From Gautieria morchelliformis (lineage: Eukaryota > Basidiomycota > Agaricomycetes > Gomphales > Gomphaceae), in contig WHVA01000333.1 in NCBI GenBank assembly GCA_015179125.1, forward strand, positions 62,001-126,000: a DNA stretch of 64,000 bases. The letters run 5' to 3'. Below are positions 480 through 43,869 of this stretch, one piece after another. The notes under the pieces were generated by a model that saw only the letters and a list, made by a program, of their open reading frames with translations, was not told where the DNA came from and made no database searches. A program made the translations under genes and the position numbers. Position 1 is the stretch's first letter. Each line of letters begins with the position of its first letter.

Positions 480-2640
480 AGTCTTCGAACTATTTTCTGC
501 GCTGTTGGCGAAGGGCTCCGTATCGTCAAGCACTCACAACCGTCCCAGCCCTTCCCATAGCACCTGCCCCTGTCCTGGTGTCTATGTACCATGGCGCCGT
601 TTCACTTCCTCTGTGATTCGTACTATCTACAATGTCCTGGCGATCTTCACAGCCATGAGGGACAGCTGGTGCGACGCAATACCTGAAGTAACCATCCCGA
701 GACCATATGAAGGCGACATGAATAAGGTATGATATGGCATTTATCACGCACGGTTGCCTTTTTGTAAGGCATTAAGGCCTAACTGAAGTCCATTTGCTGT
801 CGACTCCGCATCGACCCACTGGTGAGTGTGTTGTCCACTTTCCCTTGGGGTTTCCTTGGAAGCCTCCTAAGATAGTGCTCTACTGGGCGGAGGCCTTCAG
901 ATGATGGTGTGTGAGCCGGACATAGTGTTGGTTTCTGGCGTGGCCTAGAGCTGATTGAGCACGCGCGCGCTTGGAGAAATTCTCCAGGTTATGCCCTATT
1001 ATATGTAGCTCCACTATTACCTTCTTCCTCTAGCATGGGATCGTCTGTAAGGAACTTCCTCTTGCGCTTGTTTGCTGGGATTCTACTTATGGAATTCATC
1101 CCCATCTCCCCTTCAGATCCTCAGCAAACCTACTAATCGCTAACACGTCAACCTGACTATTCCTGCAGAGGATCAAGGTTGCCTATGCGCCACGCCATGG
1201 TATTCTACTGCTTGGTCCATGTTGCCATCCATTGTTGCTATCCTTATTTGACTTTCGTCTTGATTCTCCAAGGCGTGCCCTCCTGAAATATCTGTCAAGC
1301 TCGTAATCTTGCCTTCTTCGAAATTTGAGACTCGCTAGTCTCTTAAGTGTGCATACCCTTTGCACTTTGAGGCTCGCTTGTATTGACCATGAGCACATTT
1401 TGTCCAACTTTCTGTCATTCTTCCCTGCGCGACGAATACATCTGTTATAATCTTGTAGCCTTGCGTTTTTAAAACTTGAGGTTTACTAGCACTCAGGTGT
1501 GTGATCCGAGGCTTTCTTGTCTTGAACACGAATACTCACGCTTGATCGGTGAAAACAATCCCACGCCATCTTTGCGATATGTGCAACCTCGGGAGGTTTG
1601 AGAGTTGCTGGTCTGTAGTATGACTTGCGTTTGATCTTTGAATCTTGAGGTTTGGCAGGGAGACATTGATCAGTGGAGCATGTGGAGCTGTAAGTGTTAT
1701 TGAAGAATTGCATGTTCATCGTCACTATGCAAGAACCCCGTTCCACTCGACGTCGCGTGGCATTCTGTAGGATGTCTGACTGTTGTAGAGTAGTACTCGT
1801 TTGCGTATCTAGACCCCGCACCATTCCGTACGGCGCCGATTCCGACTCGACGTATGTGACATCACGACTAGCGTACCACCAGAGCACCCCTTGCTACCCC
1901 GACTCTTGCTCAAATCGACATGCAAACGAGCGATAATTTGTCGTGTCTAGCTTAGTTGTTGGCTCCAGAGAGCGGAGCGCAGGTATGGGTTTGGAAATCC
2001 ATCCCATGGTGCTGATGCCCCAGTAGCAGGTTCACCCATTCCCACTCGCTGGCCACTAACGAAGTAAAGTCAATGTCATATCCACCACAAGGCAGGGTGT
2101 ACTATCCCATTTTCCGATGTGTAGGAGATCGTGTGAACCGTCGGCGAGGGGATTCCTCACGTTGCTGGATGGATTAGTTCCCATGGTGTACACCAGGTCT
2201 CTTCAGCCGTACGTGCGGCGATATTCGGCATGGACAGAGGATACATTGAGCCCGATCCGTTCGGCACGTAGACTCCTAGACTCCTAATCGGGTTCAAAGG
2301 CAATTCCATTTTGAAACAGATGCGACAACGAATGTTAACTCTTCTACAGGCGAGTTACATACCTGTTAGACCGTAGTCCATTCGTGAATATCGCCGTGTC
2401 AGAAAATACAATTCCCAACGATGACCAACAGTTTTATTACCCCATATTATAATCAGAAGGTGGATAGGACCAAGAATCAGGAAAGAAACACACAGATGCT
2501 GTATTCTGAGCCTAAGGAAAGCCACCCGAGTTTAACAGAACGATTGATCCGGCGCTTACTCAGGTCATTTCCGACTCAATGCTCCGAGTCGACCAAGCGT
2601 CATCCATGTCAACAATACCATACGGTGCAGTAGCTTGTGT
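480..2640 (+). pseudogene. Family A host segment, copy 1 (unknown multi-exon gene, decayed)
   Basis: I do not recognise the product. The segment is alignable with 35258-36560 in the same orientation and with 64000-62500 in reverse. Two stretches look like former exons because the copies keep one reading frame through their differences. One is at about 590-732, with residues RRFTS, TIYN, RDSWCD and IPEVTIPRP shared with copy 2, followed by a possible donor gtatgatatgg. The other is at about 1694-1936, with PRSTRRRVAFCRMSD and DSDSTYVTSR shared with copy 3. A third shared stretch is at 2421-2480 (MTNS, ITPYYNQKV, NQERN). No copy has an open frame across all parts, so I treat it as a pseudogene or fragment family. 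It could also be an unknown mobile element; no terminal repeats were seen. Confidence 0.4.
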
Positions 2641-2900
2641 AAGTCTCACTCTAAGTGTGCCTCAATATTATCCTTCTGATATGTGGGAGAAGTTGGAGTC
2701 AATTGAGGATTCATCATGAGAATCAGATCCATCATCTCATTGACTAGGTGCTTCTCTGGACCACTTCTTATTTCAACTATGTAGGTAGACACCCCCATCT
2801 TTTACTATACTGTGAATCAAACTCACACACTTGGTACGAGCACTGGGATGTAACGACACGTCACTAGCGCCCCTCGATGATCTTTGCACGCAACAGGTAA
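2613..2900. repeat. Left flank of the Helitron-like block; inverted copy at 43959-44240
   Basis: Read in reverse, 44240-43959 matches this segment almost throughout, including the stretches gtgtgcctcaat, cttctgatatgtgggag and gtgaatcaaactcacacac. The match ends at caacaggtaa (2891-2900). On the other copy it continues into taaca with no insertion, so the pair gives the pre-insertion state of the block that follows. No gene seen. Confidence 0.85.
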
Positions 2901-3049
2901 TTACACTATATGAAAACAGCTCGGTGGGTTGTGGGCGTCGAGCTTATGTCAGGTTTTAGGTCAGCCTTAGTCAGCTGGCCAATCGGACGCAAGCGGCGCA
3001 GCCGCGAGCCCTAGGTGGCCAGACCATTGACGCTGCGCAGCAGCGTCCC

Positions 3050-3110
3050 AGGTCACGTGACCCGTTCACGCGTGGTCCGTGCACGACACGCGCGCGGTAT
3101 ATAAAGGCAG
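3050..3110 (+). promoter_or_regulatory. Promoter-like module of unit 1 (CACGTGAC plus TATATAAA)
   Basis: CACGTGAC at 3054-3061 is an E-box (bHLH-type site). TATATAAA follows 37 bp downstream at 3098-3105. The same pair at similar spacing is found in units 2 (6087 and 6144), 3 (8178 and 8245) and 5 (11730 and 11785). Conservation of both motifs while the sequence between varies suggests function; transcription is not shown. Confidence 0.45.
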
Positions 3111-4214
3111 AACGGTAGGATAGAATGCCAGGAATCTGCGTGATCGGCGATTCCTCTCTGCGGTCTGCTGTCTGCTCTGTCTGCTCTGTCTGCTCTGTCT
3201 GCTCTGTCTGCTCTGTCTGCTCTGTCTGCTCTCTCCTCTATGCTCTGTCTGTGCTGTTTGCTGTCTGCTCTCTCTGGTGTCTCTCTCCTCCTTTAGCTGG
3301 CTGCCTGTCTATGGCTTTGGTTGGCTGGCTATCTATTGCTTTGTTGGCTGGCTTTCTATTGCTTTGCTTTGCTGGCTATCTATTGGCTTTGCTGGCTTTC
3401 TATTGGTAGGGAATATCTCTTTTTTAATGCATTGCCATGTATTTTATTTTATTTGTGTTTGTAATTTTATTGGTTGGTTTTTTTTCCATTATATTATATT
3501 GTCACATATGTGCTTTATATTTTTGTGAATTTTTCGCAAATACATTTAAATAAAATCCCAAGACTGTGCTGAAAAAAATGGATTTTAATATCTATATTTT
3601 TCAGGTTTTTTTCGCAAATAGACATCAATGAGTTTCTTCTAAAATTCACCACAACAGATTCTGCTTTCAATGTGGTTTTTTGTTGTTTTATTTACTGTAA
3701 AGCTGCTCACCAGGCACTCCTCTCTGCTGTTCTCTGGCTATATTGGGGGCTGGCTTACTATGGCTTTGGCTGGGCCCTGGGTTTCTCTGTCAGTCTCTGG
3801 GTTCTCTGGTTTTGGCTGGGCATTAATAACAGCTTCTGCTTCAATGTACTGTACTTTTTTGACATTTTTTCGCAGATAGATGTCAATAAATTATCCTGAC
3901 TTTGTGAAAATTGACAACAGCTCCAGCTTAAATGTACAGTGCATTTTTTTGACATTTTTCAAAAATAAAATCCTATCTTAGCTAAAATTAATAACAGTTT
4001 CAGCTTACATGTACTGGACATTTTCTTGACATTTTTTTTCAAAAAATAGATAATCCTGACTTTGCTAAAATTAGTGACAGCAGCTGCTTAAATATGGCTT
4101 CCTTTACTATTTTATTTATGTCTGTATATGTCACAAAACAGATATTGATACATGTCCCTGAGTTTGCGAAAAGTTAATGATAAGTAACAGCCTCTGCTTG
4201 CTTCACTTTGAAGC

Positions 4215-5005
4215 CCTTGGGGATATGCTACACATGCCATTGGGACATGCTATGCATGGGGACACGCATGTTATGCATGGAGACACATATGTTATGCATG
4301 GAGACATGCATGTTATGCATGGGGACACACATGTTATGCGTGGAGACACACATGTTATGCATGGGGACAAGCATGTTATGAGTGGAGACATGCATGTTAT
4401 GCATGGGGACAAGCATGCTATGCATAGGGACACACAGGCTATGCATGGGCACATGCACACTATGCATGGGGATGTGCACACTATATGTGGGGACACACTA
4501 TGCTTGGGGGACACGGTACGAACAAGGGACACACTACAGGGGAAAACACTACAAACAAGGGACATTCTACACATGCTATACTTGGGGGACACGCTACAAA
4601 CAAAGGACATGCTATGCACACTATACTTGGGGGACATGTTATGCATTGGGGACACACTTTGCACACTATACTTGAGGGAGATGCTACACACACTACATGT
4701 AGGGAGATGCTACACATGTGGACACGCTATGCATGGGGGGACACACATGCTATAATTTAGGGACATGCTACATTTGGGGACACACTATGCACACTATACT
4801 TAGGGACACATTACAAACAAGGGACACACTACACACACTATACTTGAGGGACACACTATGCACACTATACTTGGGGACACAGTACATGTGGGGACATGCC
4901 ACCTGTGAGGACAGGCTACCTGTGAGGATGCGATATATGTGAGGACAGATGAAGTGTGATGACAACTACAGGTGGGGACATGCTACACGTGAGGTAGGGG
5001 ACACA
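4215..5005 (+). repeat. Minisatellite of unit 1 (about 21 bp, then mixed)
   Basis: Repeats of the type ggggacacgcatgttatgcat, 21 bp, give seven-residue repeats such as MHGDTHV in one frame. The right half turns into ggggacacactatgcacact units and finally the 17-bp type gggacacgctacctgtg seen in units 2 and 5. Both strands stay open over long runs, which is a by-product of the repeat. Confidence 0.85.
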
Positions 5006-5037
5006 CAGACATGGGAGAAATGTGTAGAGTCATTACC

Positions 5038-5727
5038 TGTTATGTATTGGGCTGGGCTCTAAAAGGACTGCGGCTTCAACTTATATGTTGCACCCCCAAC
5101 TATCATCCTAAGTATTTTGGAGATTGGAGATCGGAAATTGGAAGAGGTCAAGTATTATAACTGAAGAGGTAAGGGTTCAAGAATTAAGTGAAGTTGGATA
5201 TCAGAAATCGAGTTGGAAGACGGAGGTCAGAGAGACAGAGGCCTTGCAAGTACTTGCTGTGGTAAGAACAGGAAATGGTGCAAAGGGAGTCACATATCAA
5301 AGTCAATTATCTGATTGCAGAACAGAGGCACACATGACTGGGTTTTATTCAAAGAGCTGAGACAACATGTCAGAAGGTAGAGGTAAGCAATTCCAGTGGA
5401 AGCAAAAGTAACTAGGATAAATGGAGTAAGTAACTAATACGGAACAAGGGGAACTACAAGGGGGTTCCGGGTAGAACTAAGAACAATCAATAGGCAAAAG
5501 AACAAGGGGAATGTGGGTCTAATTGATAGTGGAACAAATGGATCTCCTGATGCTCTGGACTTGCTATGCTAAGGGTCAAGTAGGGAAGGCCGGTGAATAG
5601 AGTCAAAAGGGGAAGTATGTGAATAGTAATGAACAAGGGGATCAAAAGGTCAAAGTGTGGACGTTGCAGAATAGAGCCAGAGGAGGCATGGAGGTACCAG
5701 AGTTGGTCAAGCAGCATGGTCATAACA
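5038..5727. mobile_element. Solo LTR, family D, inside Helitron-like unit 1
   Basis: 690 bp, starting TGTTATGTATTG and ending GGTCATAACA, flanked by the 5-bp duplication TTACC (5033-5037 and 5728-5732). Unit 3 lacks it at the matching place (gagacattacatatcttgatg). Superfamily is not certain without internal sequence; a 5-bp duplication fits copia or gypsy. It carries the transitions TpG and CpA where the younger copy D2 (10245-10984) has CpG. Confidence 0.85.
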
Positions 5728-6959
5728 TTACCTACCTTGACCTGTTACTTAGAGCTACTTTCAATCAATAAGATGTGTTTTACTTATCTGAATGAAATTT
5801 TCTTATCCGAATGTGGTTGACTTATCCCAAGTTTGATTTACCCAAGGTGTTTGACCTTACCGATGCGTTTGACCTTACCGAGGCGTTTGACTTGCACCCT
5901 CGCGCGAAGCGCGGGTATCCACCTAGTCTAAGAGTTAAACGCGGGGTGGGTGGTTGTGGGCGTCGCTTATGTCAGGTTTTAGGTCAGCATTGGTCAGCTG
6001 GCCAATCGGACGCGAGCGGCGCAGCCGTGAGCCCTAGGCCCCTGGCCCAGGCCAGGCCATTGATGCTGCGCAGCAGCGTTCCAGGTCACGTGACCGGTTC
6101 ACGCGACCATACGAGGGTGGTCCGTGCACGACCCTTCGCTTGGTATAAAGAGAGCGATGCTGCAGAACCGCACTCCTCACTGGTGTCCTCCTGTGTTCTG
6201 GCTGTGGTGGGCTTACTACTTCTTTGGCTGGGGTCTTGGTGTCTTTCTGTGTGTCTCTGGGTGTCTTTCTGTGTGTCTCTGTGTGTCTTTCTGTGTGTCT
6301 CTGTGTGTCTTTCTGTGTGTCTCTGGGTGTCTTTCTGTGTGTCTCTGGATGTCTCTGGGCTTCTTTGGCTGTGAATTGACACCAGCTTCTGCTTCAATGT
6401 CCTGTATATTTTTTGATATTTTTTCGCAAATTGCTATCAATACACCTAACTTACTAACCTTAATAATAGCCAACTTAAATATCCTGTACATTTTTTTGAT
6501 ATTTTTTCGCAAATAGCTATCAATAAACCTAACTTGCTAACCTTAACAATAGCCAACTTACATATCCTGTACATTTTTTGATATTTTTTGGCAAATAGAC
6601 ATCAATAAATCAAACTTGCTAACCTCAATAACAGCCACCTTAACTATCCTGTAATTTTTTTGACATTTTTTTCGCAAATGGATATCAATAACTTATACTG
6701 ACTTTGCTCAAGTTGATAACAACTTCTGTTTTAATGTAGTGTGTTTTTTTTTTATCTTTTTTTGAAAAATAAATATAGATATCAATGAATTATCCTGACT
6801 TTGCTAAAATTAATACCAGCTTCAGGTTAAATGTACTGTACATTTTTTGACATTTTTTCAAAAGGTAGATATTAATAAATTATCCTGACTTTGCTAAAAT
6901 TAATAAGAACAGCTGCTTAAATGTTTATATGTCACAAAATAGATACTGATACATGTCCC

Positions 6960-7515
6960 TGATATGTGTGAGGACACGCTACCTGTGGGGACACGTTACC
7001 TGTGAGGACACACTACGTTTGGGGACACGCTACCTGTGAGGACATGCTACCTGTGAGGACATGCTACCTGTGAGGACATGCTACCTGTGGGGACACGCTA
7101 CCTGTGAGGACACGCTACCTGTGAGGACACGCTACCTGTGGGGACACGTTACCTGTGAGGACATGCTACCTGTGAGGACACGTTACGTGTGAGGACACGT
7201 TACGTGTGGGGACACGCTACCTGTGAGAACACATTACGTGTGCGTTACATGTGAGGACATGTTACGTGTGGGACATATTATGTGTGGGGAGTTATCTGTG
7301 GGGACACGTTATGTGTGGGGATGTGCTTCCTCTGAGGACACGTTATGTGTGGGGACACAGTACGTGTGGGGACACGCTACCAGTGGGGACACGTTACGTG
7401 TGGGACACGCTACCAGTGGGGATACGTTACGTGTGGGGACACGCTACCAGTGGGGACACGTTACGTGTGGGGACACGCTACCTGTGAGGACACGTTACGT
7501 GTGAGGACATGCTAT
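6960..7515 (+). repeat. 17-bp minisatellite of unit 2
   Basis: About 32 copies of gggacacgctacctgtg and variants. Because 17 is not a multiple of three, the frames rotate and several overlapping open frames appear; none is a credible gene. Unit 5 has the same array, shorter, at 12535-12845. Confidence 0.9.
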
Positions 7516-7647
7516 CCAACTGCACTTTGGGTCTTCCCCCATTTCTGATTTTGGTATTGTTTCTGGTTCTGTGAGAGTGTCACCAGAGGATCAGCTGGCA
7601 TATCGATATAACCACATTGTCAACATTCAGGATCCCCAAGATCACTA

Positions 7648-7830
7648 TTGGATCTATTTCACAATGCACAAGCTTTGAAACCTGTGGATTATGACAATAG
7701 GCGCAATCTTATAATCTCTGATGATTCAGTCACGACCATTACCACTTTCATGTCTAGAGCCGCTGGGAAGGCCATCCCAGAGGTCAAGAGGGAGGTCTGC
7801 ATGTTCAGCTGTTCCAGGGGGCATACATGA
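7648..7830 (+). other. Short open frame shared by units 2 and 5
   Basis: An unrecognised 60-residue frame (MDLFHNAQALKPVDYDN...). Its counterpart at 12973-13173 keeps the frame for 66 residues, with ten changes in the shared 60. The conserved part lies in the only non-repetitive stretch of these units, so it may be a captured host gene fragment, or sequence common to the subfamily with no coding role. An upstream frame (residues PEDQLAYRYNHIVN) ends just before it. I cannot name a family. Confidence 0.3.
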
Positions 7831-7986
7831 TTCATGATAATATATGAACAGGGATATAATTTGCATGACACTTTTTATTTGCCACAATGCACTTGACCTT
7901 ACTGATTCACTTGACCCTACTGATGTGTTTGACTTTACTGAGGCATTTGACCTACACCCCTGCGCGAAGCGCGGGCACCCACCTAG

Positions 7987-9883
7987 GTACACTATATGAA
8001 AGCGCCTCGGTGGGTTGTGGGCGTCGAGCTTATGTCAGGTTTTAGGTCAGCCTTAGTCAGCTGGCCAATCGGATGCGAGCGGCGCAGCCACGAGCCAAGA
8101 ACGCTGCGCAGCATAGTCACGTGACCGTTTGCGTTCCAAATTAGGTCAGCGGCGAGTATAGAACGCTGCGCAGCGGTCACGTGACCCGTTCGCGACCAGA
8201 GCGCGCATACGCGAGCGTGGTCCATGCACGACACGCACGTGCGGTATAAAGGCCGAACGGTAAGGAGGGAACGCCAGGAACCTGCCCAACCGGCGATTCC
8301 TCTGTCTGCTGTCTGCTCTGTCTGCTCTGTCTGCTCTGTCCCCTGTCTGCTCTGCTCTGTGCTCCTTTAGCTGGCTGGCTGTCTATTGCTTTGGCAGGCT
8401 GGCTATCCTTTGCTTGGGTTGGCTGGCTATCTATTGGGTTGGCTGGCTATCTATTGGGTTGGCTGGCTATCTATTGGGTTGGCTGGCTTTCTATTGGTAG
8501 GTAATATCTCTTATTTAATGCATTGCCATGTATTTTATTTTGTTTATGTTTGTAATTTCATTGGTTCCTTTTTTTTTCCATCATATTGTATTGTCACATA
8601 TGTGCTTTATATTTTTGTGAATTTTTTCGAAAATACATTTAAATAAAATCCCAAGACTGTGCTGAAAAAATTGGATTTTAATATCTATATTTTTCAGGGT
8701 TTCTTTTTGCAAATAGACATCAATGAGTTTCTTCTAAAATTCACCACAACAGATTCTGCTTTCAATGTGGTTTGTTTTGTTGTTTTATTTACTGTCAAGC
8801 TGCTCACCAGGCCCTCCTCTCTGGTGTTCTCTGGCTATACTGGTGGCTGGCTTACTATGGCTTTGGCTGGGCCCTGGGTTTCTCTGTCAGTCTCTGGCTG
8901 GGCATTAATAACAGCTTCTGCTTCAATGTACTGTACTTTTTTGACATTTTTTCGCAAATAGATGCCAATAAATTATCCTGACTTTGTGAAAATTGACAAC
9001 AGCTCCAGCGTAAATGTACAGTGCATTTTTTTGACATTTTTCGAAAAATAGATAATCCTATCTTAGCTAAAATTAATAACCATCTCAGCTTACAAGTACT
9101 AGACTTGACATTTTTTCAAAAAATAGATAATCCTGACTTTGCTAAAATTAGTGACAGCAGCTGCTTAAATATGGTTTCCTTGACTATTTTATTTATGTCT
9201 GTATATGTCACAAAATAGATATTGATACATGTCCCTGACTTTGCTAAAAGTTAATAAGTAGTAACAGCCTCTGCTTGCTTCACTTTGAGGCCCTTGGGGA
9301 TATGCTACACATACCATTGGGACATGCTACACATGCTATACTTGAGGGGCATGCTACACACACTATGCATGGGGACACGCATGTTATGAGTGGAGACATG
9401 CAATGCATGGGGACACACAGGCTATGCATGGGCACACGCACACTATGCATGGGGATGTGCACACTATATGTGGGGACACACTATGCTTGGGGGACGGGAC
9501 ACACAGGCTATGCATGGGCACACACAGGCTATGCATGGGGATGTGCACACTATATGCATGTGGGACACGCCATGCACACTGTACTTGGGGACATGCTACA
9601 TGTGGAGACACACTATGCATGGAGGACATGCTACGCACACTATACTTGGGGACATGTTATGTGTGGGGTCATGTTACAAACCAGGGACACAATAAGCATG
9701 CTATATTCGAGGCTATGCACACTATACTTGGGCACATGCAGACATGTGTAGAGACATTACATATCTTGATGTGTTACTTATAGCTACTTTCAACTGCAAT
9801 GAGATGTGTTTTACTTATCCCAAGTTTGATTTACCCAATGCGTTTGACCTACACCCCCATGTGAAGCATGGGTATCCACCTAG
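7987..9883 (+). mobile_element. Helitron-like unit 3
   Basis: It starts GTACACTATATGAAAG right after the CTAG of unit 2 and resembles unit 1. It has two CACGTGAC sites (8118 and 8178), tataaa at 8245, ctctgtctg microsatellite, ggctggctatctattgggtt repeats (8370-8490), AT-rich units (8600-9260), minisatellite (9295-9750), and tail. Its 3' hairpin has decayed to CCCATGTGAAGCATGGG, with CpG lost on both arms so that pairing is kept, followed by CCACCTAG at 9876-9883. It lacks the solo LTR found in unit 1. Confidence 0.65.
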
Positions 9884-11381
9884 AGGTAGGGGTTCAACAA
9901 TCGAGTTAAGTTGGATATCAGAAATTGAGTTGGAAGGCAGAGGTCAGAGAGACAGAGGCCTTGCAAGTACTTGCTGTGGTAAGAACAGGAAACAGTGCAA
10001 AGGGAGTCACATATCAAAGTCAATTATCTGATTGCAGAACAGAGGCACACATGACTGGGTTTTATACAAAGAGCTGAGACAACATGTCAGAAGGTAGAGG
10101 TAAGCAATTCCAGTGCAAGTAAAAGTAACTAGGATAAATGGAGTAAGTAACTAATACGGAACAAGAGGAACTACAAGGGGGTGCCAGGTAGAACTAAGAA
10201 CAACCAATAGGCAAAAGACCAAGGGGAATGTGGGTCTAATTGATTGTTACGTATCGGAATTCCCGGAGGTCGGAACTGGACGGGACAACAGCTTCAACTT
10301 ATGTGTTGCACCCCTGATGAACTACCTTCCTAAGTATTTCGGGATTGACTTGTGGATATCGGAGAAGGCAGAAGTCGGGAACAGAGTACTGAGAGTCGAG
10401 GTTTGAGGGTCGGAGAACAAAGGTCAGAAGAGGCAGAAGAGGCGGAGGACACAGGGTCGAGAGCGTAAGGAGACAAGACTAGCAAAACTCGCTGTGCTAA
10501 GAACAGGAGACAGTGCGAGGGGAATCACGTATCAAAGTCGATTATCTGGTTGCAGAAACGGAGACATACATGAGGGGGTTTTATACAAAGAGCTGAAGCA
10601 ACAGGTAATGGTATGGTACTAAGCAAATTCCGGAGAGTGCGGGAATCGGACAGACATACGGGGCAAGTAACTAATGCGGAACAATGGGATGACAAGGGGG
10701 GTGCAGGGTAGGGTAAGTACAATGGCAAAGAACAAGGCGAGTAAGTACAATAGGCATCGGAAGAAACGGAATGACGGAAATGGTATCTTGCTGTGTTCAG
10801 GGTCGAGTACGGGGGCCGGTATCTGGAGGTGGCCAGGGGTACTGAAATCACAAGGGTTGAGGTAGAGGGTTGCGGATGGTGCGGATGTTGTGGAATAGAG
10901 TCGGAGGTGGTGTGGAGGCGGTGCAGAGGTGGTGCAGAGGATATGCAGATATGGTGGAGATGGTTGAGCGGAACAGTCGTAACATTGATCAAATGGACCT
11001 CCTGATGCTCCGGACTTGCTATGCTAAGGGTCAAGTAGGGAGGGCCGGTGAATAGAGTCAAAAGGGGAAGTATGTGAATAGTAAAGAACAAGGGGATCAA
11101 AAGGCCAAAGTGTGGACGTTGCGGAATAGAGCCAGAGGAGGCATGGAGGTACCAGAGTTGGTCAAGCAGCATGGTCATAACATTACCTACCTTGATGTGT
11201 TACTTAGAGGTACTTTCAATCAATAAGATGCGTTTTACTTATCTGAAAGAAATTTTCTTATCCGAATGTGTTTGACTTATCCCAAGTTTGATTTACCCAA
11301 GGCGTTTGACCTTGCTGATGTGTTTGACCTTACCGAGGTGTTTGACTTGCACCCCCGCACGAAGCACGGGTATCCACCTAG
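9884..11381 (+). mobile_element. Helitron-like unit 4: duplicated tail of unit 1
   Basis: This begins abruptly in sequence matching position about 5168 of unit 1, inside the family D LTR, and runs on through the LTR end and the unit 1 tail to a hairpin and CTAG at 11378-11381. The junction cataacattacctaccttga is the same as at 5721-5740, so the LTR was already in place when this copy arose. It is a duplication, not an independent insertion. A further family D LTR (10245-10984) then landed inside it. Confidence 0.75.
10245..10984. mobile_element. Solo LTR, family D (D2), nested in an older family D LTR
   Basis: 740 bp, TGTTACGTATCGG to GTCGTAACA, flanked by TTGAT on both sides (10240-10244 and 10985-10989). 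It keeps CpG at sites where the other copies have TpG or CpA, which fits its being the youngest. No internal retroelement region is present. Confidence 0.85.
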
Positions 11382-11604
11382 TGCTTAATAGAAGTCTGAT
11401 AGTTATTACATAATCCCAGTGGGCCCCTTAGGGACCCACTGTATAGTTTATGCGTGGGAACCGGCTAGTGGTCCCCATCGTATCTTACCCTTACACTGTC
11501 ACTACGTAGCATCAGAATACCACACATTGGTCAAGTTCTGTTGTGCTCTTGTGACTTAAGGCTTAAGATAGACATCCTTTACACCTTTTTGAACTATCCT
11601 GCGG
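11382..11604. other. Spacer between Helitron-like units 4 and 5
   Basis: 223 bp with no match elsewhere in the window and no gene. It contains a short palindrome (gtgggccccttagggacccac near 11420). It may be old flanking DNA carried with unit 5 or the real 5' part of that unit. Confidence 0.4.
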
Positions 11605-13308
11605 TCTAAGAATAAAACGGGGGCAGTGGGTTGTGGGTGCTGCTGACCAATGCTTGGTCATCAGTTGTCAGCGGAGCACGCGAGTGGCGCAGCCGCGAGC
11701 TACAAACGCTGCACAGCAGCGTTCCAGGTCACGTGACCGGTTCGTGACCATACGCGAGTGGTCCATGCACGACCCGTCGCTTGGTATAAAGAGAGCAATG
11801 CTGCACAACCGCACTCCCCACTGGTGTCTTCCTGTGTTCTGGCTGTGGTGGGCTTACTACTGCTTTGGCTGGGGTCTTGGTGTCTTTCTGTGTGTCTCTG
11901 GGTGTCTTTCTGTGTGTCTCTGGGTGTCTCTGAGCTTCTTTGGCTGTGAATTGACACCAGCTTCTGCTTCAATGTCCTGTATATTTTTTGATATTTTTTC
12001 GCAAATTGCTATCAATACACCTAACTTGCTAACCTTAATAATAGCCAACTTAAATATCCTGTACATTTTTTTTGATATTTTTTCGCAGATAGAAATCAAT
12101 AAATCTAACTTGCTAACCTTAATAATAGTCAACTTAAATATCCTGTACATTTTTTTGATATTTTTTCGCAAATAGACATCAATAAATCAAACTTGCTAAC
12201 CTCAATAACAGCCACCTTAACTATCCTGTAATTTTGTTGACATTTTTTCGCAAATGGATATCAATAACCTATACTGACTTTGTTCAAGTTGATAACAACT
12301 TCTGTTCTAATGTAGTGTGTTTAGCTTTTTTTGAAAAATAAATATAGATATCAATGAATTATCCTGACTTTGCTAAAATTAATACCAGCTTCAGGTTAAA
12401 TGTACTGTACATTTTTTGACATTTTTTCAAAAGGTAGATATCAATAAATTATCCTGACTTTGCTAAAATTAATAAGAACAGCTGCTTAAATGTTTATATG
12501 TCACAAAATAGATACTGATACATGTCCCTGATATGTGTGAGGACACGCTACCTGTGGGGACACGTTACCTGTGAGGACACACTACGTTTGGGGACACGCT
12601 ACCTGTGAGGACACACTACCTGTGAGGACACGTTACGTGTGAGGACACGTTACGTGTGAGGACACGTTACGTGTGGGGACATGCTACCTGTGAGGACATG
12701 CTACCTGTGAGGACACAGTACCTGTGGGGTCACGTTACCTGTGAGGACACGCTACGTTTGGGGACACGCTACCTGTGAGGACACGTTACGTGTGAGGACA
12801 TGCTACCTGTGAGGACACGTTACGTGTGAGGACATGCTATCCAACTGCACTTTGGGTCTTCCCCCATTTCTGATTTTGGTATTGTTTCTGGTTCTGTGAG
12901 AGTGTCACCGGAGGATCAGCTGGCATATCGATGTAACCACATTGTCAACATTCAGGATCCCCAAGATCACTATTGGATCTATTTCACAATGCACAAGCTT
13001 TGAAACCTGTTGATTATGACAATAAGCGCAATCTTATAATCTCTGATGATTCAGTCAAGACTATTACCACTTTCATGTCTAGAGTTGCTGGTAGGCCCAT
13101 CCCAGAGGTTGAGAGAGAGCTCTGCATGTTCGGCTGTTCCATGGGTGCATACATGATTCATGATACTATATGATCAGGGATATATTTTGCATGATCCTAT
13201 TTACCCCAATGCACTTGACCTTACTGATTCACTTGATCTTACTGATGCATTTGACCTTACCAAGGCGCTTGACTTGCACCCCCGCGCGAAGCGCGGGTAC
13301 CCACCTAG
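11605..13308 (+). mobile_element. Helitron-like unit 5
   Basis: It starts TCTAAGAATAAAACGG. It has CACGTGAC at 11730-11737, tataaa at 11785-11790, a tgtctttctgtgtgtctctg repeat, AT-rich 83-bp units, a 17-bp minisatellite, the short shared frame at 12973, and the best preserved 3' end of the array (CCCGCGCGAAGCGCGGG, 11 nt, CTAG). Host T follows. Confidence 0.7.
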
Positions 13309-13762
13309 TAACTGGGAACGACGACTCATATTACTGTAATACAGGCGAAAATATTAAGCGCAGGATGTCCAAACTATATTGAAGCCTTAATAACACCAAC
13401 CGAGGCGGGATTTTGGCACAGCCAAGTCCTAGTCAACAAAGCCTGAGGCGGCAGTAGACATGGAGCACCAAGTTAGGGTAATTTTAGGAAGGGCTGAGAT
13501 GTTCTGCCGCACTGATCTACCTTTGCAACATTGAGATAGCTAGCATCGTCAGTTATGTACAGGACCCAGGATAGCCTATAATTTGTACAGCTTCCTTCCG
13601 CTTGAGTTTAATTTCCCCCGCAGGCAAACTCCGCGGTGCCAGCGGGGCTTTGATGATGGCTTCTCTGGCGGGGTTTTGAAGACTTAATGGTCAGAAAGAC
13701 GGGTAATACTGAATCGTGCTTCACCTTTGAAGTCTCCCAATATCCCCCCATTCCCCTAGTCC

Positions 13763-15860
13763 ATGCCCATCCACCTCCCGCCACCGGCCACTCTTTCGAG
13801 GCTGGAGACATGCCCCGTCGAGGTTTTGGAAGCTATCGTCCTCGCAACCGTTGGTAGAAACCTACCTGGTCCTCCCGCCGACCTGGCTTCACTCCTTTGC
13901 GTCTCAAAAGCCATATATTTCTCAATATCCATGAAGAACAACACATCACTCTATGGAAAGATCTTTGTACTGAAATTCGACGACCGAGCACCTGTGCGCA
14001 GACTAGGAGAAACTTGCAAGCATGGAAGCATAAGAACGGAAGAACTTGTCAAACGATTTCAGTCGTTGAAAATGTTCAAGATGATGAAATGTCGGCAATT
14101 TTGTGCTGCCCCAACGGCTCGCGGGGATCTATGGGTGGCATACCTGCTGTTTCTGGAACACGATCGCCAGAACTATCAACAATTAGTTTCCTACGCAGCC
14201 GTCGACAAGTTTGCCAGCAGCTTCATCAAGATGGAGGACCCTTCCACGATGGGCTTGAGGGCAATGGTGGTTGGAGAATGGACACTGAAATAAACGCGCT
14301 GGGAACATGGATAATTTGGTTGACGGACAAGGGTAAAATCAATTGTTTTCTATATTGTGCAGTCTGAGAGGTCATATGGTACCAGATCGCTTCGCGAGTG
14401 AAGCTGGAGCTGACCGTGCAAGTGTACTGGAGGCCTTTTCACATATGTTTGTAGGGTCGTTCAAAGTGACTGACTTGTTCATTCTATTCGTAATTTCCTG
14501 ACTCAACGACACTCAGTACGCATCCACCCATGCCCCAATAACTTCCTTTGATATTCCGCTCACTGGACCCACCACGCCACTGCTGCCGCCAACCACGTCT
14601 GCACTCCCTCTCGCTGCGCTTCCATCCTCGCGGCGGAGCTATCTACAGGACTACTTCGGCGTCACTCTACCCGTCACCCACCCGGTTCTTGCACCCGCAG
14701 TGTTCTTGAGCTGTGCCGTCCGTCTTGAGGCTGCCGGAGCTGAAATGGCGAGGCGTCTTCCAGAAGGACACGGCACCCCAACAACTATGTTTGCAGACTG
14801 GGGCCAGGGTTGTGGCAGCGAGCAATATGACCATGACTGGAGCTGTCTGCTCACTTGCTACATCCCGTGGATGCCAGTGATCAGCGTCATCATACCGCGT
14901 GTGTTCACGCCTGGGATGCTAACTGGTACTTGGGTTGGCCGCTGTTTTGTAGGCCTCTTTCCTAAACCATATTATCGTCGCCTTCACTCTATTACATCAA
15001 GGAGGTTCCTGAGGAACAATTCGATGATCTTCTGGCTCCACAGCCTTCGGAAGATGATCCCATGCCTCCAGAACCTGATGTATATCCTACACTGATGCAG
15101 TTTCTTCTTCGGTGAGCCTGGATTGCATTGCACAATATGCACATACTCTCACGGCGTGAATAACCCAGTGAATACCATGCCCACGACCATTCTCAAACGC
15201 TCGGGTTTAATGATTCGAGTCAGGACTTGGGAAGCAATGGCGTGTTCAAAGCTTGGTTGCCGCAAGGTGTAGGCATGAGCGAGACTGAGGTGTGTCCTAT
15301 ATATGTGTGTGTGTGTGTGTAACGATCATCTCAGTCCTTTGCTGGTCGATAGCGCGAGCTATGCTTCTCAGTCGACAACCCTGGCACCATGCGGCTGTGC
15401 AAGTATGATATTTATGATCCGGCCACAGCCGCGAGAAGGGCATTGGATGAAGAATTCAGACCGACTGCTCCCTTCAGCGATGGTGTCTACGACATCGTTC
15501 TAACTGCTCAGGTACGTACAAAGAGCGTTGAACATATTTGTCTTTTGAATCATGCATATATGCAGACCGGGGATCACTTCGGTTCCGTATGGGGACACAA
15601 GTCCTACTACGGTCGTGTCAGAGGCTGGGATGGCCTTATCCTGCTCTTTAGCGTTGCAGTAAGTGCTTGTTTGCTTCTTACGCACATGCCATTGGCATTA
15701 ATGCTCTTGGGTTGTGCTGCAGACACCAGGGGAACCGTCACTGATATTCAGTGGCTATATCCACGGGAGCACAAACCTTGTGGGTAGATGGCATGAAACT
15801 GCCACACCAGTGGACTTGCCTGGCTGGGAGGGTGTATGGAGTATGATAAAAATAGAATGA
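13763..15860 (+). pseudogene. F-box domain protein gene, copy 1 (multi-exon, probably inactive)
   Basis: The predicted protein resembles a large Agaricomycete family of F-box proteins (substrate adaptors for SCF ubiquitin ligases). The N-terminus has the F-box-like CPVEVLEAIVLATVG and LLCVSKAIY. The middle has WVAYLLFLEHDRQNYQQL and YASTHAPITSFDIPL. The end has GRVRGWDGLILLFSVA, GYIHGSTNLVGRWHET and PGWEGVWSM, the usual C-terminal pattern. Supported introns are 14466-14516, 15512-15565 and 15659-15722, and the stop is at 15858-15860. A further exon starts at 15353. Against the inverted copy, one base seems missing near 14229 (SFIKMED for SVIQDGG), which breaks the first exon. The exon border near 14935-15000 is unclear. 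ATG at 13763 is chosen because it precedes the F-box-like stretch closely. Confidence 0.6.
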
Positions 15861-16261
15861 CCCAAGGCGATAGCCAGGTGAATCTCGTTGAAATAGAAGC
15901 ACATGTCTGTTTTGCTCGGCCTGCTGGTTAATAGATGGCGGATGGCGTGGTCTCTAACTGAAAACCTGTCGTATTCAGCCTCCGACAGTCCAACATCCTG
16001 TACCATTACGACCATAGGTTCAGAGCTCGGCGGTGTGACATGAAATTTTACCTAGTTCACTGGTTCAGAGGAAACCGTGACATGTGACTGAACTTAAATT
16101 AGTTCAATGAACATCCGACTCAGGTGCGAAAAAATTTGCTACTCTGGACTTGCTCAGCCTGTATGTGTAACAGGTGACTACGGCTCTGGGAGTTCAGGTT
16201 GAAGGGGTCTTGTGACGCGTGAGTGAACCTATGGTCGTAATGGTACAGTATATTCACTATC

Positions 16262-21303: not shown

Positions 21304-21537
21304 TGAAAATGTCTTTGCACTTAAGACAGGTTATCTCAGTGAACGGCTGTTTCACTATGTATATAGTAAAGTACCTTAAGACAGGTTATCTATGGGGATA
21401 TGATAAGTAAACTGTCTGTCCAACGACAGGTAAGTCTCACCTCAGTGAACGGCTGTTTCACTGAGGTGTGATGATGTTCCAGCGAGATTATATAATAGCG
21501 TCATGGTCCGTGCGTTCTCTGCTTACTAACACTAACA
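21304..21537 (-). repeat. 3' LTR of copia family 2
   Basis: 234 bp. On the plus strand it runs TGAAAATG...ACTAACA. It contains a perfect 12-bp stem-loop (CACCTCAGTGAA, 7-nt loop, TTCACTGAGGTG) at 21438-21468 and a partial earlier copy of the same motif at about 21332-21353. Confidence 0.95.
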
Positions 21538-21544
21538 CTCCCCC

Positions 21545-24472
21545 TTAAGCTGAACGCACTCCAACGGATATTCTAAGACAAGCGAGCTGTGGAGCCGGCA
21601 GGGCCTTTGTGAGCATGTCCGCCGGCATGTCAGCGGTAGGGCAGTAGTCAATGGAAATCAGGCCACACTTGACCACATCGCGGATGAAATGGTATCGTAC
21701 ATCAATATGCTTGGTGCGTGCCTTGAACTGATCGTTTTTCGAGACTGATATCGCTGACTGGTTATTGCAGTACATGGTGACGAGCTGTGTGAGAGGATGG
21801 GCAATTTTGGCGATGAACATGCGAATCCACAGGCCTTCTTTCGTTGCGTGAGTGGCAGCTATGTATTCTGCTTCCATTGTAGATAACGCGACGATGGACT
21901 GCTTCTTTGAGCTCCAGGACACGGCACCTCCATCTATGGTGAACACATAGCCGGATATTGAATATCGATGGTGCTGTGAGGCTCCATCGGCATCCGAAAA
22001 CCCTTCGAGTCCGGTGCGTTCTTGTTTTCCTGGCTTTGCCCATGTCCACCGATTCCTGACACTGATAACTAGCTTCTGGTCGATCATTCCTTTCAGGTAA
22101 CGAAAGACTCGCTTCACCTCTTCCCAATGAGGCTGTCCCGGCTTCTGCATGAACTGTGACAGAAACGTGATGGCAAACATGATGTCCGGCCTCATCCCTA
22201 GGGCTGCGTACATTAGGGATACGATGGCCTCATGGTATGGGACTCCCCGGACGGCTTCGTAGTGGTGCAGTGTGACAGGGCATTGGGCTAGGCTCAATTT
22301 GTGATGCGGGTCGAGTGGGGTCAACAGGCCCTTTGCATCTTGTAGTCCGAATCTCTCCAGTATCTTCGTAATATACGCGTGCTGCGAGAATGATATCGTT
22401 CGAGCCTTCCTGTCCCTTGCGACTTCAATGCCTATCATCCAATGTAGGTCGCCTAGATCTTTGATTTTGAGCTCCTGGCTAAGTTCCAACTTAAACTTGC
22501 GGATGACCTCTCTCAAGCTTCCGGCAATAGTCATATCATCGACATCTGCAGCGACGAGTAACGTGTTATTGTCTTCCTGCTTAAGGAATACGGCATGTTC
22601 AACCCGGCATCTCCTAAACCGGAGTTTGAACATGATCGCGCACAGGTGGTCATACCATTCGTGCCCAGACTGTCTCAGTCCATAGATCGCTCTTTTTAGG
22701 AGACATACGTGGTTCTCTTTGCCTTGAACCTCGTATCCTCTGGGCTGGCGCACGTAGATGGTCTCCCTCAGCCGTGCATTGAGGTATGCTCCTTCCACAT
22801 ATGTCTGCTCCAATTCCCAGTCATTTCTGATGATCCAAATTGCTGAGAGATTCACTGTCAGCGCGAAGGTCTCATTGTAGTCTATGCCTTCGACTTGCGT
22901 GAACCCCTGGGCGACGACTCTGCTTTTGCGGCTGACAAGGTTGCCGCTTGCGTTGTGTTTATAGTGGAGGATGATCCGACTTCCACCGATGTTCATGTCC
23001 TTAGGTGGCTCCACCAGTTCCCAGGTACCAACCTCTTCGTGCTGTTTTAGCTCCCTTTTTATTGACACGTCCCATTCTAGCCAATCGTCGAGTTCACGGG
23101 CTGCCTCAACGTTCTTAGGGTCATTTCCCACGCTTTGTGCTGCCAGAATCGCGTACTCCATATACTCTCCCTCGAGTTCTACGTCGTCGTGGTCTGAATT
23201 GACGGGATACTTGGAATCATGGAGGGCTGCGATGGCAGCGGTCTCCCTGGAGTCCCCATTTGGGCTTTGGGGCGGGATCGGCATGCCACGTGGATACGCA
23301 GGTGCGTTCACACGTCCGGAGCTCGTGCCCTGGCCCTGAGCAATATCGTGGACATACACTGACGGTTTGCGTAGTCTATGTCCGCGCCCTTGCTCGGGTC
23401 CCGTTGCAGGTTCGGGCGCCTCAAAACCTTCGAGTGGGTCTGTTTGCGGTGTTTGCGGATGCGGAGGTAGCTCTTCGCTGGTATCTTCTTGAGGTAAGTC
23501 GTGACTTTGGTTTGGAGCACCACGCTGACTGCGCTTTGTTGCTCTCCCCCTCATTTTCGGCCGATACATCGCTCGGACCAATGGTGACGTTATTGTCGAA
23601 CGCAATATTGCATTCGTCTGTCACTCGTTGTTTCCCCGGCCAATAAACTCGGTGAGCTTGACTTTGCCTGCTATATCCAACCCAGCGTCCTTCGTCCACC
23701 TTCGCGTCTAGTTTCCCACGATCCTCCTTCAATACCCAGACCTTGGCGCCCCATTCCGGTAAGTTTGACAAATCCGGTTTTTTGTTGAACATGAGCTCAT
23801 AGGGGTTTTCCCATCCAATTGGTGAGTGGATGTGCGGTTTTTGAGCCAAACCACATGCTGAATTGATTCCGGCCATAGGAACTTGGGTAGATCGGCTGCA
23901 TAGTGCATGGCGCGTGCATGCTCTATCAATGTGTGGTTCAGGCGTTCCGCTACACTGTTCTGTTCGGGCGTATCATGAACAGTAAGGCTTCGGATTATAC
24001 CTTTCGACTTCAAATGCTGATCGAACTCCTCGGATAGATATTCCCCCCCTCGATCGCTTTGACTTCATTTGACTTTCCCGCCATGCTGTGTCTCTATCCA
24101 AGCCTCGTACTGCTTGTAGCAAGTAAGTACTTCGCTTTTTCTTTCCATTGGTTTGACGCGTGACCAGCGAGTGAAATCATCAGTAAAACTGACGAAGTAT
24201 TCCCTCCTGTCGTAGCTCTGAGGGGTGGTAGGTCCCCATACATCGCTGTGTATTTTTTCGCCGAGCTTTGTAGCTTGCGGCCCTATCCTTTCCCTAGGGA
24301 TGGGCTTGCGCGTCATTTTCCCTTGTGCGCACGACGTGCAGAACGTAGGTACGCTCTTCTTGTCTACTTCAATGCCAGTGATAACACCTTTAACTACAAG
24401 GCTTTTTATGGCGCGTGGGGAGATGTGACCCATCCGGCGGTGGAGTTCATCGATGGTGAGGATTTTCTGCAC
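21545..24472 (-). CDS. Copia family 2 integrase, reverse transcriptase and RNase H region (fossil)
   Basis: Read on the minus strand from 24472: an integrase zinc-binding stretch (H..H..C..C: HRRMGHISPRA ... CTSCAQGK), core (HSDVWGP, FTDDFTRW), then TPEQNSVAERLNHTLIEHAR. The long 686-residue stretch at 21545-23605 holds the reverse transcriptase (VEGAYLNARL, AIYGLRQSGHEWY, AADVDDMTI) and RNase H (SWSSKKQSIVALSTMEAEYI, HIDVRYHFIRDVV). These are the usual copia parts in the usual order, in more than one reading frame. Not functional as it stands. Confidence 0.85.
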
Positions 24473-25017
24473 GGGCCGATTCTGTAGGTGGTGCGTGTTC
24501 CACCTTTTTCTTTTTTTTTTTTCTTCATTTTATTCGACCGCAGGGTATCCTATGGTGGTCGCTACACATATGGTACCTAACAATGGAGTGGGCCTTCCCC
24601 CTCACTCCCTGGGGCTCCCACCCCGCTGCATCCTCGAGTGGGCAGCTGCACCGGCGATGGATCCTCTCCCCCGCGGGCCCGGCCCCCTCGGGGCCGTTTG
24701 CTGCCCCCCTCTGGTTCGTGAGGCAAGGCATGTTCTCTCTCCGCTTGAGTGTGTCATATTTGGTCTATCCTCGTAAGTGCTCAGCTGCCGAAGCGAGCCT
24801 GCACGACGTGTGAGAGCGCCGCAGCTAGAGAAAAGAAAAGAAGGGTCCAGATGGTGTCGCCGCGCCATCTTGAGCGCCACGTCCGGCCTTGCGTGTCTTG
24901 AACCTGCCACGCCGAGTCCTTGCACGCCGCTGCCCGAGCATGTGGTTGTGTGCGTTGTGGTATTGGGGATTCTGTCCTACCCTGTATTCTACCCACCTAT
25001 CTGTCCAATAGAGTAGC

Positions 25018-25929
25018 TCACTGTCTATCAGCTGTGCGAGGGAGGACATCACCGAAAGTGCCCTCCAGCCTTCTCGTGGCAGCTACAAAGCTGAGCATCG
25101 CCCTTATCCCTTTTTCCTTTCCCAGCAGCTCCTTGAGTGACTTGGCCTTACTCCCTAGCGCACTTCGTAGCCCATGTCTGGCATGCTCGTGAGACCGGCA
25201 GTCGAAGAGGTAGTGATGGACTGTCTCGTCAGCCTTTGCGCACGCCGGGCACAGCGGTGTTGTCGCCTTTTTAATCCTGTGTAGGTGGCTGTTGAGTGGG
25301 GTGTGCCCTGTGCGCAGCTGTGTGACCAGGCTAGCTTGGGCCCGGGTGAGGCCATCTATTGTTTCGGAGTACCTCTTGGAAGGGAGGGTGCTGTCTATCT
25401 TGACCATTCTAGCGTACTGGGGCAAGGCTGCCCACCTCCCTCTCCATGCTTGTCTCAGGCCTGCTTTAAATGATTGTCTTGCAGTGGCTATGCTGTACGG
25501 TAGTGGTGTCTGGCTTATAAATGCAGGCAACTCACCGGGTGGGCTGCTGTTCCCCACCGATGCCTCCTTTGCCTCTGTGTCTGCCTCGTCGTTACCTCTC
25601 ACATTGTCGTGTCCCGATATCCAGGCCAGCCTGAGCTTTATTTGGCATCGCCGTGTCGGCCTGGCCACTTTGTTGGCCATGTCGCAGACCTGTGTCAGAA
25701 TGTGTTGAGCTGGCCTGGGCCGTATATATCCGACCAACTGTAGCACTGCTTGGTTGTCTAAGAGGACCGTCACGGAGGTGACTCTCTTCTCCTTTGACAC
25801 TAGCTCTAGCGCCAATGACACCCCGATTGCCTCCGCCTCATATGTGTTATGGTCCATTAGTGGGCCCAGGCAGTACCTCAGGGCTGCCTTGCGCTGTCCA
25901 TCCCTATAGAGGACCGCTGCTGCCCCCAC
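25018..25929 (-). pseudogene. LINE ORF2, RNase H and C-terminal zinc motif
   Basis: A 303-residue frame. The RNase H domain covers residues about 1-125: a degenerate start, then EAEAIGVSLALEL, LLDNQAVLQL and ISGHDNVRGNDEAD, which place the acidic active-site residues. Near residues 225-245, CPACAKADETVHHYLFDC is the C-x2-C-x7-H-x4-C motif common at the ends of I-type LINE proteins. It normally forms one polypeptide with the reverse transcriptase; here a stop at 26077 and a frame change separate them. Confidence 0.8.
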
Positions 25930-26076
25930 CTGCCCGTCCAGCCCAGACCCATCTGTGTATACCTTGACCTCTTCTGTATCTCCCGCGTCATCCTCCTTGG
26001 AGGCCTCCCTGGACTCCGCAATGCTAGTGTCGAAGAGCTGGGCTGCCTCTGGCGGCTGTAGGGCAGGGTAGATCGT

Positions 26077-27396
26077 TTAGTAGCTGTCAGGCGTGAGGTG
26101 GAATGTGTGGAGTAGCGTGTGTAGGGGGGATGGGTGGCGCTTGACCAGGCGCCTCGCGCAGGAGCACACGGGCTGGTGCAGAGGGTGGGCCTTTGGGAGG
26201 GCGACCAGCCAGACGGCCGCTCGGTGGCAGACATCCAGCAGTAGCAGCTCAATGGGGAGCACATTGGCATGGACCTCCAGGATGTCGGTGGCCGTCGTCC
26301 GCATCGCGCCCGTAATGGCTATGGTTGCCATCCTCTGTATCGAGGTTAGCTTACGCACCACTCCTGCCGACCCCTTCGTCTTTTTGGCCCCATCTGGTTT
26401 TTGTAGCGGGGTGAACCAGACATCCGCCGCATACATGAACTTCGGGATTGCCACCGCTCGGTAGAGTTGCCTCATTAGGCTCACCCTGACACCTGTGGAT
26501 GGCTTAGATAACCTGCGGAACAGCAGTGTCCACTTAGTGGCTTTAGCAACGGCTTTCTCTGCCTGTATATTCCAGCGTAGTTCCTCATCCAGATAGACCC
26601 CCAGGAATTTCTGCGCCTCTGCGGGCTTGATGACGGTGCCCTTGTAGACGAAGTCGGGCCTTGCTGCTGGCACCGTTTTTCCTGGTCAAGCCGGGTCTTG
26701 GACACGTCTTCTCGAGAACCCCACTATTGCAAACTTCGACTTTTCGAACCTTGAGTGGTGGGCCTGGGTCCGGTCTCTGGCCCCCCCTTGCTTCAACATC
26801 ATGTGCCGCAGGCTGTTGTAGGCTTCCTCATATGTATCACCCTCCACATAGAGGTTCGCATCGTCCACGAATGCCACCGCTGCCTGTCCTTTTCCTACCG
26901 GGATGTCAATGAGGTCAGCGTTGTAAAAAAGGTAGAGAATCATGGACAGGGGATCCCCCTGTCCTATACCGTTGTTTATAGCTAGCCAGTCCGATGTGAA
27001 GTCGTCAAAGTGCAGCTTCATGCGTCTGCCTGCCAGCATTGCTTCTACGAACAGCACATATGCCTCAGGCACTCGGCGTTTGCGCATGTTGTGGAGCAGC
27101 CGGTCAGTGACCACGTTGGGAAATGCGCCCTCTATGTCCAGGAACAACATGACTGCCACTTTTTTGCGTCTCCAAGCACCCTTGATCTTGTTGGTGACCA
27201 GGTGTAGGGAGTCTGTTGTCGTTCTTCCCGGCCTTCCCCCAAAGTGGTTTGCCGGGAGGAGGCTGTATTTCTCCATCATATACACCATGTCTTCCGCCAC
27301 GATTGCTGTGAGCAGTTTGCCAATAGTGTTGAGGAGCGCTATGGGCCGATAGGATTTGGGCGTGTCATAGTTGGCCTTGCCTGGCTTCCTGAGCAC
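26077..27396 (-). pseudogene. LINE ORF2, reverse transcriptase palm and thumb
   Basis: Two adjacent frames. The frame at 26686-27396 holds SYRPIALLNTIGKLL, FGGRPGRTTTDSL, LFLDIEGAFPNV, GIGQGDPLSMILYLFYNADL and the catalytic AFVDDANLY (FVDD in place of the more usual FADD). The frame at 26077-26673 continues with KFLGVYLDEEL and the thumb region (YAADVWF, LTSIQRMATIAITGAMRTT). The change of frame between them near 26680 shows the gene is broken. It would copy the element RNA at a nicked target. Confidence 0.85.
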
Positions 27397-27450
27397 TACT
27401 GTAATCCACGTCTTCCACCTGCCGCTGTATGTTTGCAGCGCAAAAGTAGC

Positions 27451-28549: not shown

Positions 28550-29382
28550 AACGTGTTATCAACCCTTGTCCAATTTTTGGTGGACATCGATTGCAGTGTG
28601 GGCATGCGTTTCGGCAATGTCATTACCATGTTGTAGTCCGCTAGCATTGAGATAAGCTCCTCCGCCTCCCGTGTCGCCGCTGCTGTGAAGAGGTGGTGAT
28701 TCCTCTCTTCGTCCCACATGGCATGGTGACGGTTGAAGTCCCCGCACCACACCATAGCGTCAGAGTTCTGCTGTATGATGCTGCGTCTTTCCCTGTCGAT
28801 GAAGCGGTCGAGCACGTGCAGTGTATCCGAGTGGGTGCAGTTGTTATATATGTTGAATATTGTAACTTTTCCCTGGTAGTGCCTGAGCTGTAGCACCGTG
28901 ATGCCGTTCGTGCCCTCGAATGATACCTGGGACCAGGAGTTTGTGTCCAGCGCAGCGTTGACAAGTATGATGGATCTCTTTGCGGCGTCGTCAGCTAAAT
29001 GAGAAGTGGGATAAATTACTCGCCAGTTGTGGTTAGCCTTAGTGTTCCCCAGGGTGTCGATGTATGGTTCCTGGAGCAGTATGATGTCCCAGTCCTTGTG
29101 TATGGGGGAGTTGATGAGGTCGTACTGCGCCTGGTCGGATTTGTTGAGGTTTTGTTGGTAAATTCTCAGTCTCTTGGGTAAATTCTCAGTCTCTTGGGTG
29201 GCGGCTCCATGGTGTACGACATCAGGCTCGGCCTGGTGGGGGCAGCCCGGCGTCGTCACCTGTGTCACTCCATCTGGTATTGGATCCTGGGTTGATCCTG
29301 TTGGCTGAGGTGGCTGGGCTGGCCTGGCGATGTGTGGGCACCGGGTGTGCCTGGTTGTCCCGCTGCCCCCCTTGCTGCACAC
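28375..29382 (-). pseudogene. LINE ORF2, APE-type endonuclease
   Basis: A 335-residue frame. After about 80 proline-rich residues, RLRIYQQNLNKSDQAQYDL, WDIILLQEPYID and WCGDFNRHHAMWDEE match the N, E and D/N blocks of the AP-endonuclease fold that nicks the target. The frame departs from the domain near 28520, where another frame takes over (PKGGTDHVPILTVF), so a frameshift is present. It overlaps the end of ORF1 by about 160 bases in a different frame, a layout common in these LINEs. Confidence 0.85.
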
Positions 29383-43840: not shown

Positions 43841-43869
43841 ACTTAGCTGTGCCAAAGTCCCACCTTGGT

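Follow-up and report, generated by a model that had tools for sequence, protein, structure and literature searches.

Organization of the Block

Positions 2901–13308 of the DNA that we analyzed, a stretch of 64,000 nt from Gautieria morchelliformis (hereafter the window), form a block of 10,408 bp containing five non-coding units of Helitron type, all in one orientation and lying at a single A|T site. The block was read directly, compared with itself and with the whole window, and the ends of its units were aligned. The units, hereafter U1 to U5 and all on the plus strand, account for its full length together with one spacer (3026 + 2060 + 1897 + 1498 + 223 + 1704 = 10,408). Two element types are represented: U1, U3 and a U4 lacking its 5' part are of type A, and U2 and U5 are of type B. 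The types have their ends in common, along with families of short repeats and a module resembling a promoter.

U1 (2901–5926, 3026 bp) begins with TTACACTATATG at the A|T of the left border (A|TTACACT), ends with CCACCTAG and carries a nested solo LTR. Its CTAG is followed directly by the TCTAAGA start of U2 (5927–7986, 2060 bp), so that the join at 5926|5927 is an exact CTAG|TC. Between U2 and U3 (7987–9883, 1897 bp) the CTAG is followed by a single G and then by TACACT; U3 starts with GTACACTATATG, and its homology with U1 begins at TACACTATATG (7988). U4 (9884–11381, 1498 bp) starts inside an LTR, flush with the CTAG of U3, and matches U1 in two stretches, 9882–10247 with 5165–5530 (94.8%) and 10987–11382 with 5532–5927 (94.7%); at its join with U3 there is a 2-bp overlap, AG, with the U1 sequence 5165–5166. 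The spacer of 223 bp then follows (CTAG|T on its left, GCGG|TC on its right) and separates U4 from U5 (11605–13308, 1704 bp), which again starts with TCTAAGA and ends with CTAG before the T of the right flank. The bases after CTAG are therefore T, G, A, T and T from U1 to U5, and the set of junctions is mixed: one is exact, another has an odd base, a third leads into the interior of an element and a fourth contains extra DNA. The non-TC start noted in the original prediction is a property of type A only (TTACACT in U1, GTACACT in U3; U4 has no 5' end), type B having the textbook TC.

The block has two nested solo LTRs, whose boundaries could be read directly. The first, LTRa (5038–5727, TGTTATG...CATAACA), lies in U1 and is flanked by a 5-bp target duplication, TTACC; U3 retains the unoccupied version of its site, and in U4 the corresponding position is occupied by the 3' part of LTRa. 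The second, LTRb (10245–10984, TGTTACG...CGTAACA, target duplication TTGAT), is nested in U4 and missing from U1. The unassigned spacer between the CTAG of U4 and the TC of U5 (11382–11604) matches no other part of the window significantly and lacks a convincing target duplication; a 7-bp inverted match lies near its ends (GATAGTT/AACTATC), and neither a matching target duplication nor a relative in the window was found for it as a solo LTR. In view of these 223 bp and the two nested LTRs, the notion that host DNA is touched at the outermost borders alone needs some correction.

All four units with a 5' end contain, within approximately 260 bp of their start and in the same order, the motifs CCAAT, CACGTG, GTGGTCC(A/G)TGCACGAC and TATAAAG, a module which we take to be promoter-like from the layout of fungal promoters. 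In U3 a third CACGTG stands directly behind the GTGGTCC motif, and in U5 the position of CCAAT differs from that of the other units. The module is followed by pyrimidine-rich and AT-rich repeat tracts and by minisatellites of 17–21 bp. Rfam searches over 2600–13600 gave no matches up to E = 1. The 20 open reading frames scanned with Pfam, out of 44 in the window (at least 150 aa), contain retroelement domains or nothing, and among them no Rep or helicase domain was found. The mobilizing enzyme would be a Rep-helicase encoded elsewhere.

Terminal Sequences of the Units

The 3' ends terminating in CCACCTAG lie at 5926, 7986, 9883, 11381 and 13308, all on the plus strand as originally predicted, a reading borne out by direct inspection, by the alignment of the ends and by a scan with a 23-bp motif of the 3' end. 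With up to three mismatches, this motif has four matches in the whole window, all of them on the plus strand and inside the block, versus a mean and a maximum of 0 in 100 dinucleotide shuffles. The remaining end, at 9883, has diverged further; the repeat finder places it with the others in one 60-bp family (D17), at 77% identity to the reference copy.

All five ends carry the CTAG that agrees with the 3' CTRR of Helitrons. A GC hairpin had also been claimed for every one of them; 10–12 nt before the 3' end, where Helitron1 elements have theirs, it is clear in U5 (0/200 shuffles folding equally well), modest in U1 (12/200), U2 (7/200) and U3 (10/200), and weak in U4, in which the DNA fold reaches –3.2 kcal/mol and 64/200 shuffles are equally good. 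The CpGs of the U3 hairpin have decayed while its fold is retained. A generic scan for hairpin plus CTRR proved too unspecific to identify such elements: it caught three of the five block ends on the plus strand (0–2 sites in 20 shuffles of the block) together with seven minus-strand sites within the block, and its total for the window was 13 plus-strand and 18 minus-strand sites. The asymmetric terminal inverted repeats of Helitron2 (Helentron) elements were not detected when the first 40 bp of four units were compared with the reverse complement of their last 80 bp (fractions of shuffles equally good, 0.45, 0.06, 0.88 and 0.49).

Beyond the window, patterns of the 3' end had no match in genome_contigs, and those of the 5' end had none in either viral_contigs or genome_contigs, collections of viral and prokaryotic sequences in which absence says little. 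The sole viral_contigs match to the 3'-end patterns (L001) looks like chance, since the 401 bp around it show no other feature of the array.

The Paralogous Empty Site

The flanks of the block have an inverted paralogue in the same window. The left flank (2619–2900), which ends with GGTAA, corresponds to 43960–44245, and the right flank (13309–15986), which begins with TAAC, corresponds to 43959–39804, its match interrupted over about 1.5 kb; the paralogous duplication thus extends as far as 39804. The empty site itself (43838–44245, minus strand) reads CAACAGGTAA|TAACAAGG at about 43959|43960. When the joined flanks (2601–2900 plus 13309–13500) were aligned with the reverse complement of 43750–44260, the alignment ran unbroken across CAACAGGTAA|TAAC, with 389 matches, 66 mismatches and 93 gap columns. 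In the paralogue, which lacks the block, the two flanks meet precisely at GGTAA|TAAC and no target duplication is seen. The empty site is therefore real, as had been proposed, and insertion into A|T without duplication is supported for the block taken as a whole, at its two outer borders, which is the level at which this alignment speaks, rather than unit by unit.

Divergence between flank and paralogue is 11.4% on the left (271 aligned bases), 19% on the right and 13.7% in the adjoining 2.5 kb. Sister units differ by only 2.8–5.4% outside CpG (2.8–5.7% in total) in the cores that were compared, which argues that the block entered after the duplication of the flanks.

Exact entry at A|T without duplication, common 3' ends with subterminal hairpin and CTAG, the TC starts of type B and the exact head-to-tail join of U1 to U2 make it very likely, at the sequence level, that the units are Helitrons. 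In this argument it is the common 60-bp ends and the empty site that count, rather than a hairpin by itself. The best explanation is that five non-autonomous elements of the canonical kind (Helitron1 type) make up a mixed array at one A|T dinucleotide, all oriented alike. It is Helitron-like but less uniform than it had first been read, and the type of arrangement is already known.

Divergence between the Units

Outside CpG, U1 and U4 differ by 3.2% (n = 753), the cores of U2 and U5 by 2.8% (n = 614) and those of U1 and U3 by 5.4% (n = 829). On counts back-calculated from these rates by rounding, the U2/U5 value is similar to that of U1/U4 (Fisher p 0.75) and the U1/U3 value is different from it (p 0.036). 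The divergence of U2 from U5 is uneven, rising outside CpG from 2.8% in the core to 6.8% in the 3' part and 12.7% in the 5' part, and 27 differences fall within the first 100 aligned bases; the last 60 bp of U5 differ from those of U1 at 5 sites and from those of U2 at 10. Decayed CpGs number 6 in U1 versus 8 in U4, and between U2 and U5 the counts are 2 and 7 for the 5' part, none in either core, and 4 and 1 for the 3' part. An age order from left to right was sought in these figures and no clear order emerged.

Possible Origin of the Array

The most likely history, to which we give a probability of about one in two, is that the array grew stepwise by repeated Helitron insertions at its left border. 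An insertion would convert A|T into A|[T...CTAG]|T, in which the 5' side again reads A|T while the 3' side becomes G|T. Since A|T is renewed at the 5' border only, newcomers at the same spot would land to the left of the resident, flush with it and head to tail. There is precedent for this process in the canonical insertion at an A|T made by the 5' T of a resident Helitron (PMC2267711). Stepwise growth is consistent with the empty site at A|T, with the five matching 3' ends, with the exact CTAG|TC at 5926|5927, with the T after CTAG at three of the five ends (U1, U4 and U5) and with the internal differences between units, which are expected of separate insertions. It fits the U1|U2 junction, the T following U4 and, if one base has changed, U2|U3; it does not account for U3|U4 or for the 223 bp. 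The 5' part of U4 would have been lost when the 3' end of U3 was joined inside U4, which requires a deletion of about 2.26 kb halting exactly at CTAG on one side and in the LTR interior on the other. Further difficulties are that G or A follows CTAG at two of the five ends, a T at three of five being near chance, that the start of U5 is preceded by GCGG and 223 bp instead of A, and that CpG decay does not make the left units younger. Moreover, the succession of type A with its LTR and type B is found twice, with similar divergence, suggesting that the pair was copied as one. Some copies at least are probably derived from units of the array itself, because U1 and U4 have the LTRa insertion in common and U2 and U5 are sisters.

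The order of the units, U1 (A with LTR), U2 (B) and U3 (A) followed by U4 (A with LTR) and U5 (B), also lends itself to rolling-circle read-through of several units at once, which we regard as possible but clearly second to stepwise growth. A source A-B-A would have been copied past its terminators, and a partial second lap (U4–U5) would have run from inside LTRa to a proper CTAG of type B. The divergences of U1/U4 and of the U2/U5 core, alike and both lower than that of the U1/U3 core, agree with such a history, and terminator bypass and circles with exact head-to-tail CTAG|TC joins have been shown experimentally for Helraiser (PMC4778049). However, the junction between the laps leads from CTAG into the interior of an LTR instead of a 5' end, the 223 bp would have to sit exactly at the U4/U5 junction, the divergence of U2 from U5 is unequal along their length, and the source trimer is not seen. 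In its simplest form, the homogeneous concatemer of identical units joined end to start, the rolling-circle product suggested earlier is not what the block contains, given its two unit types, one unit without its 5' part and the 223 bp in one junction.

Slightly less probable, and equally tentative, is a history in which, after a few Helitron insertions, the U1–U2 stretch was duplicated by unequal exchange or break repair and microhomology joined the end of U3 to LTRa. The AG overlap at U3|U4, the plentiful homologous repeats (LTRa and the tracts of types A and B) and the mosaic look of U2 in its 5' parts and of U5 in its last 60 bp speak for it; yet it requires a break placed precisely at a CTAG end, and the right end of the block lacks the additional U3 that a simple tandem duplication of 5167–9883 would leave there. 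It is very improbable that the array is an assembly error or a repeat of another kind merely resembling Helitrons. It is known from one assembled copy, the generic scan is unspecific and type A has no TC start, but sister units 3–7% apart over hundreds of bases do not represent one locus assembled twice, and the empty site, being exact, speaks for a single clean insertion boundary.

If stepwise growth is extended to its limit, Helitron termini could act as a one-way trap: with A|T restored on the 5' side only, growth to the left could be endless, the array would hold a dated stack of elements and residents would also seed copies of themselves. The array might then be a partly preserved record of this process, including an A-B pair moved as one, a speculation that we hold to be rather unlikely as it stands.

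Comparison with Known Helitron Arrays

Head-to-tail Helitrons joined by CTAG|TC and tandem Helitrons are already published for maize, bats and other organisms. In maize AF466202, a CTAG is followed directly by TC between elements that differ internally, as in our block, and consecutive insertion was argued, either at the A|T formed with the 5' T of the resident or by noncanonical insertion at G|T (PMC2267711). That pair consists of two elements, whereas five 3' ends are found here, together with sister units, a truncated unit and foreign DNA in a junction. Bat and silkworm arrays are thought to follow bypassed termination (PMC4067079), and exact CTAG|TC joins are known from Helraiser and Helibat circles; these circles, and the arrays of bats and plants likewise ascribed to bypassed termination, come from animals and plants, and the present block differs from them also in mixing two element types (PMC4778049, PMC5876387, PMC4067079). 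The A|T targeting of Helraiser had 46 exceptions among 1,751 insertions (PMC4778049).

Among fungi, HELPO1 and HELPO2 of Pleurotus ostreatus share with our units the insertion at A|T, the 3' CTRR and the subterminal hairpin, and their relaxed 5' end, T[C/G], indicates that a relaxed start is not unheard of in fungi, even if type A here starts with TTACACT (PMC4289320). These families include Rep-helicase elements, of which none was found among the open reading frames scanned here, and the portion of that report's text searched mentions no tandem arrangement (PMC4289320). Tandem fungal copies do occur among the Helitron2-like FoHeli elements of Fusarium and in Metarhizium, with three copies in tandem, for which insertion into the 5' end of another copy or rolling circle was offered as explanation; unlike our units, those elements do not end in CTRR and carry asymmetric terminal inverted repeats (PMC5148889). 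The one open literature library searched yielded no other array that is mixed, has five ends and is accompanied by a paralogous empty site.

Whether tandem Helitrons arise by read-through or by successive insertion is a long-standing question, raised already for maize (PMC2267711). Taken alone, the array is one more fungal example of a known pattern; with its five ends, two element types, nested LTR common to two units as a lineage marker and paralogous empty site, it would serve well as a natural test case, provided that sequences of haplotypes or sister species are obtained.

Promoter-like motifs and CpG depletion in the Helitron-like array

In all four array units that possess a 5' end, CCAAT, CACGTG, GTGGTCCRTGCACGAC and TATAAAG lie close to that end, a set that is common to units of type A and type B and, judged by its motifs, is promoter-like. 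The set is found at ~3019-3106 in the first unit (U1), ~6002-6150 in U2, ~8065-8251 in U3 and ~11647-11791 in U5, coordinates that are approximate because they derive from offsets within the units. The array is also low in CpG, with observed/expected ratios of 0.40-0.65 vs 0.78 for the window, a pattern such as may be left by cytosine methylation. The hairpin of U3 (9856-9872) has its CpGs altered to TpG or CpA with stem pairing kept, whereas a CpG change of the same kind has weakened the stem in U4.

Other repeats in the window

A third solo LTR, read from the sequence at 42883-43534 with the duplication GAAAA, belongs to the same broad family as the two solo LTRs of the array, and self-comparison of the window places it between inverted arms (42439-42760 and 43535-43829, 78%). 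The same comparison revealed an LTR pair (21304-21537 and 32419-32652, 98.7% identity) surrounding Copia-type ORFs, between which other ORFs contain endonuclease, reverse transcriptase and RNase H domains; 21304-32652 is thus probably a LINE nested inside a Copia element. It further detected a short LTR pair (96%) at 49415-51381, on either side of an ORF of Copia type that encodes gag only (50448-51146); this is probably an LTR element of the non-autonomous kind. A 180-bp pair in direct orientation (1-180 and 44503-44682), also found in this way, is at 99.4% identity much more similar than the flanks of the inverted duplication, which are 11-19% diverged.
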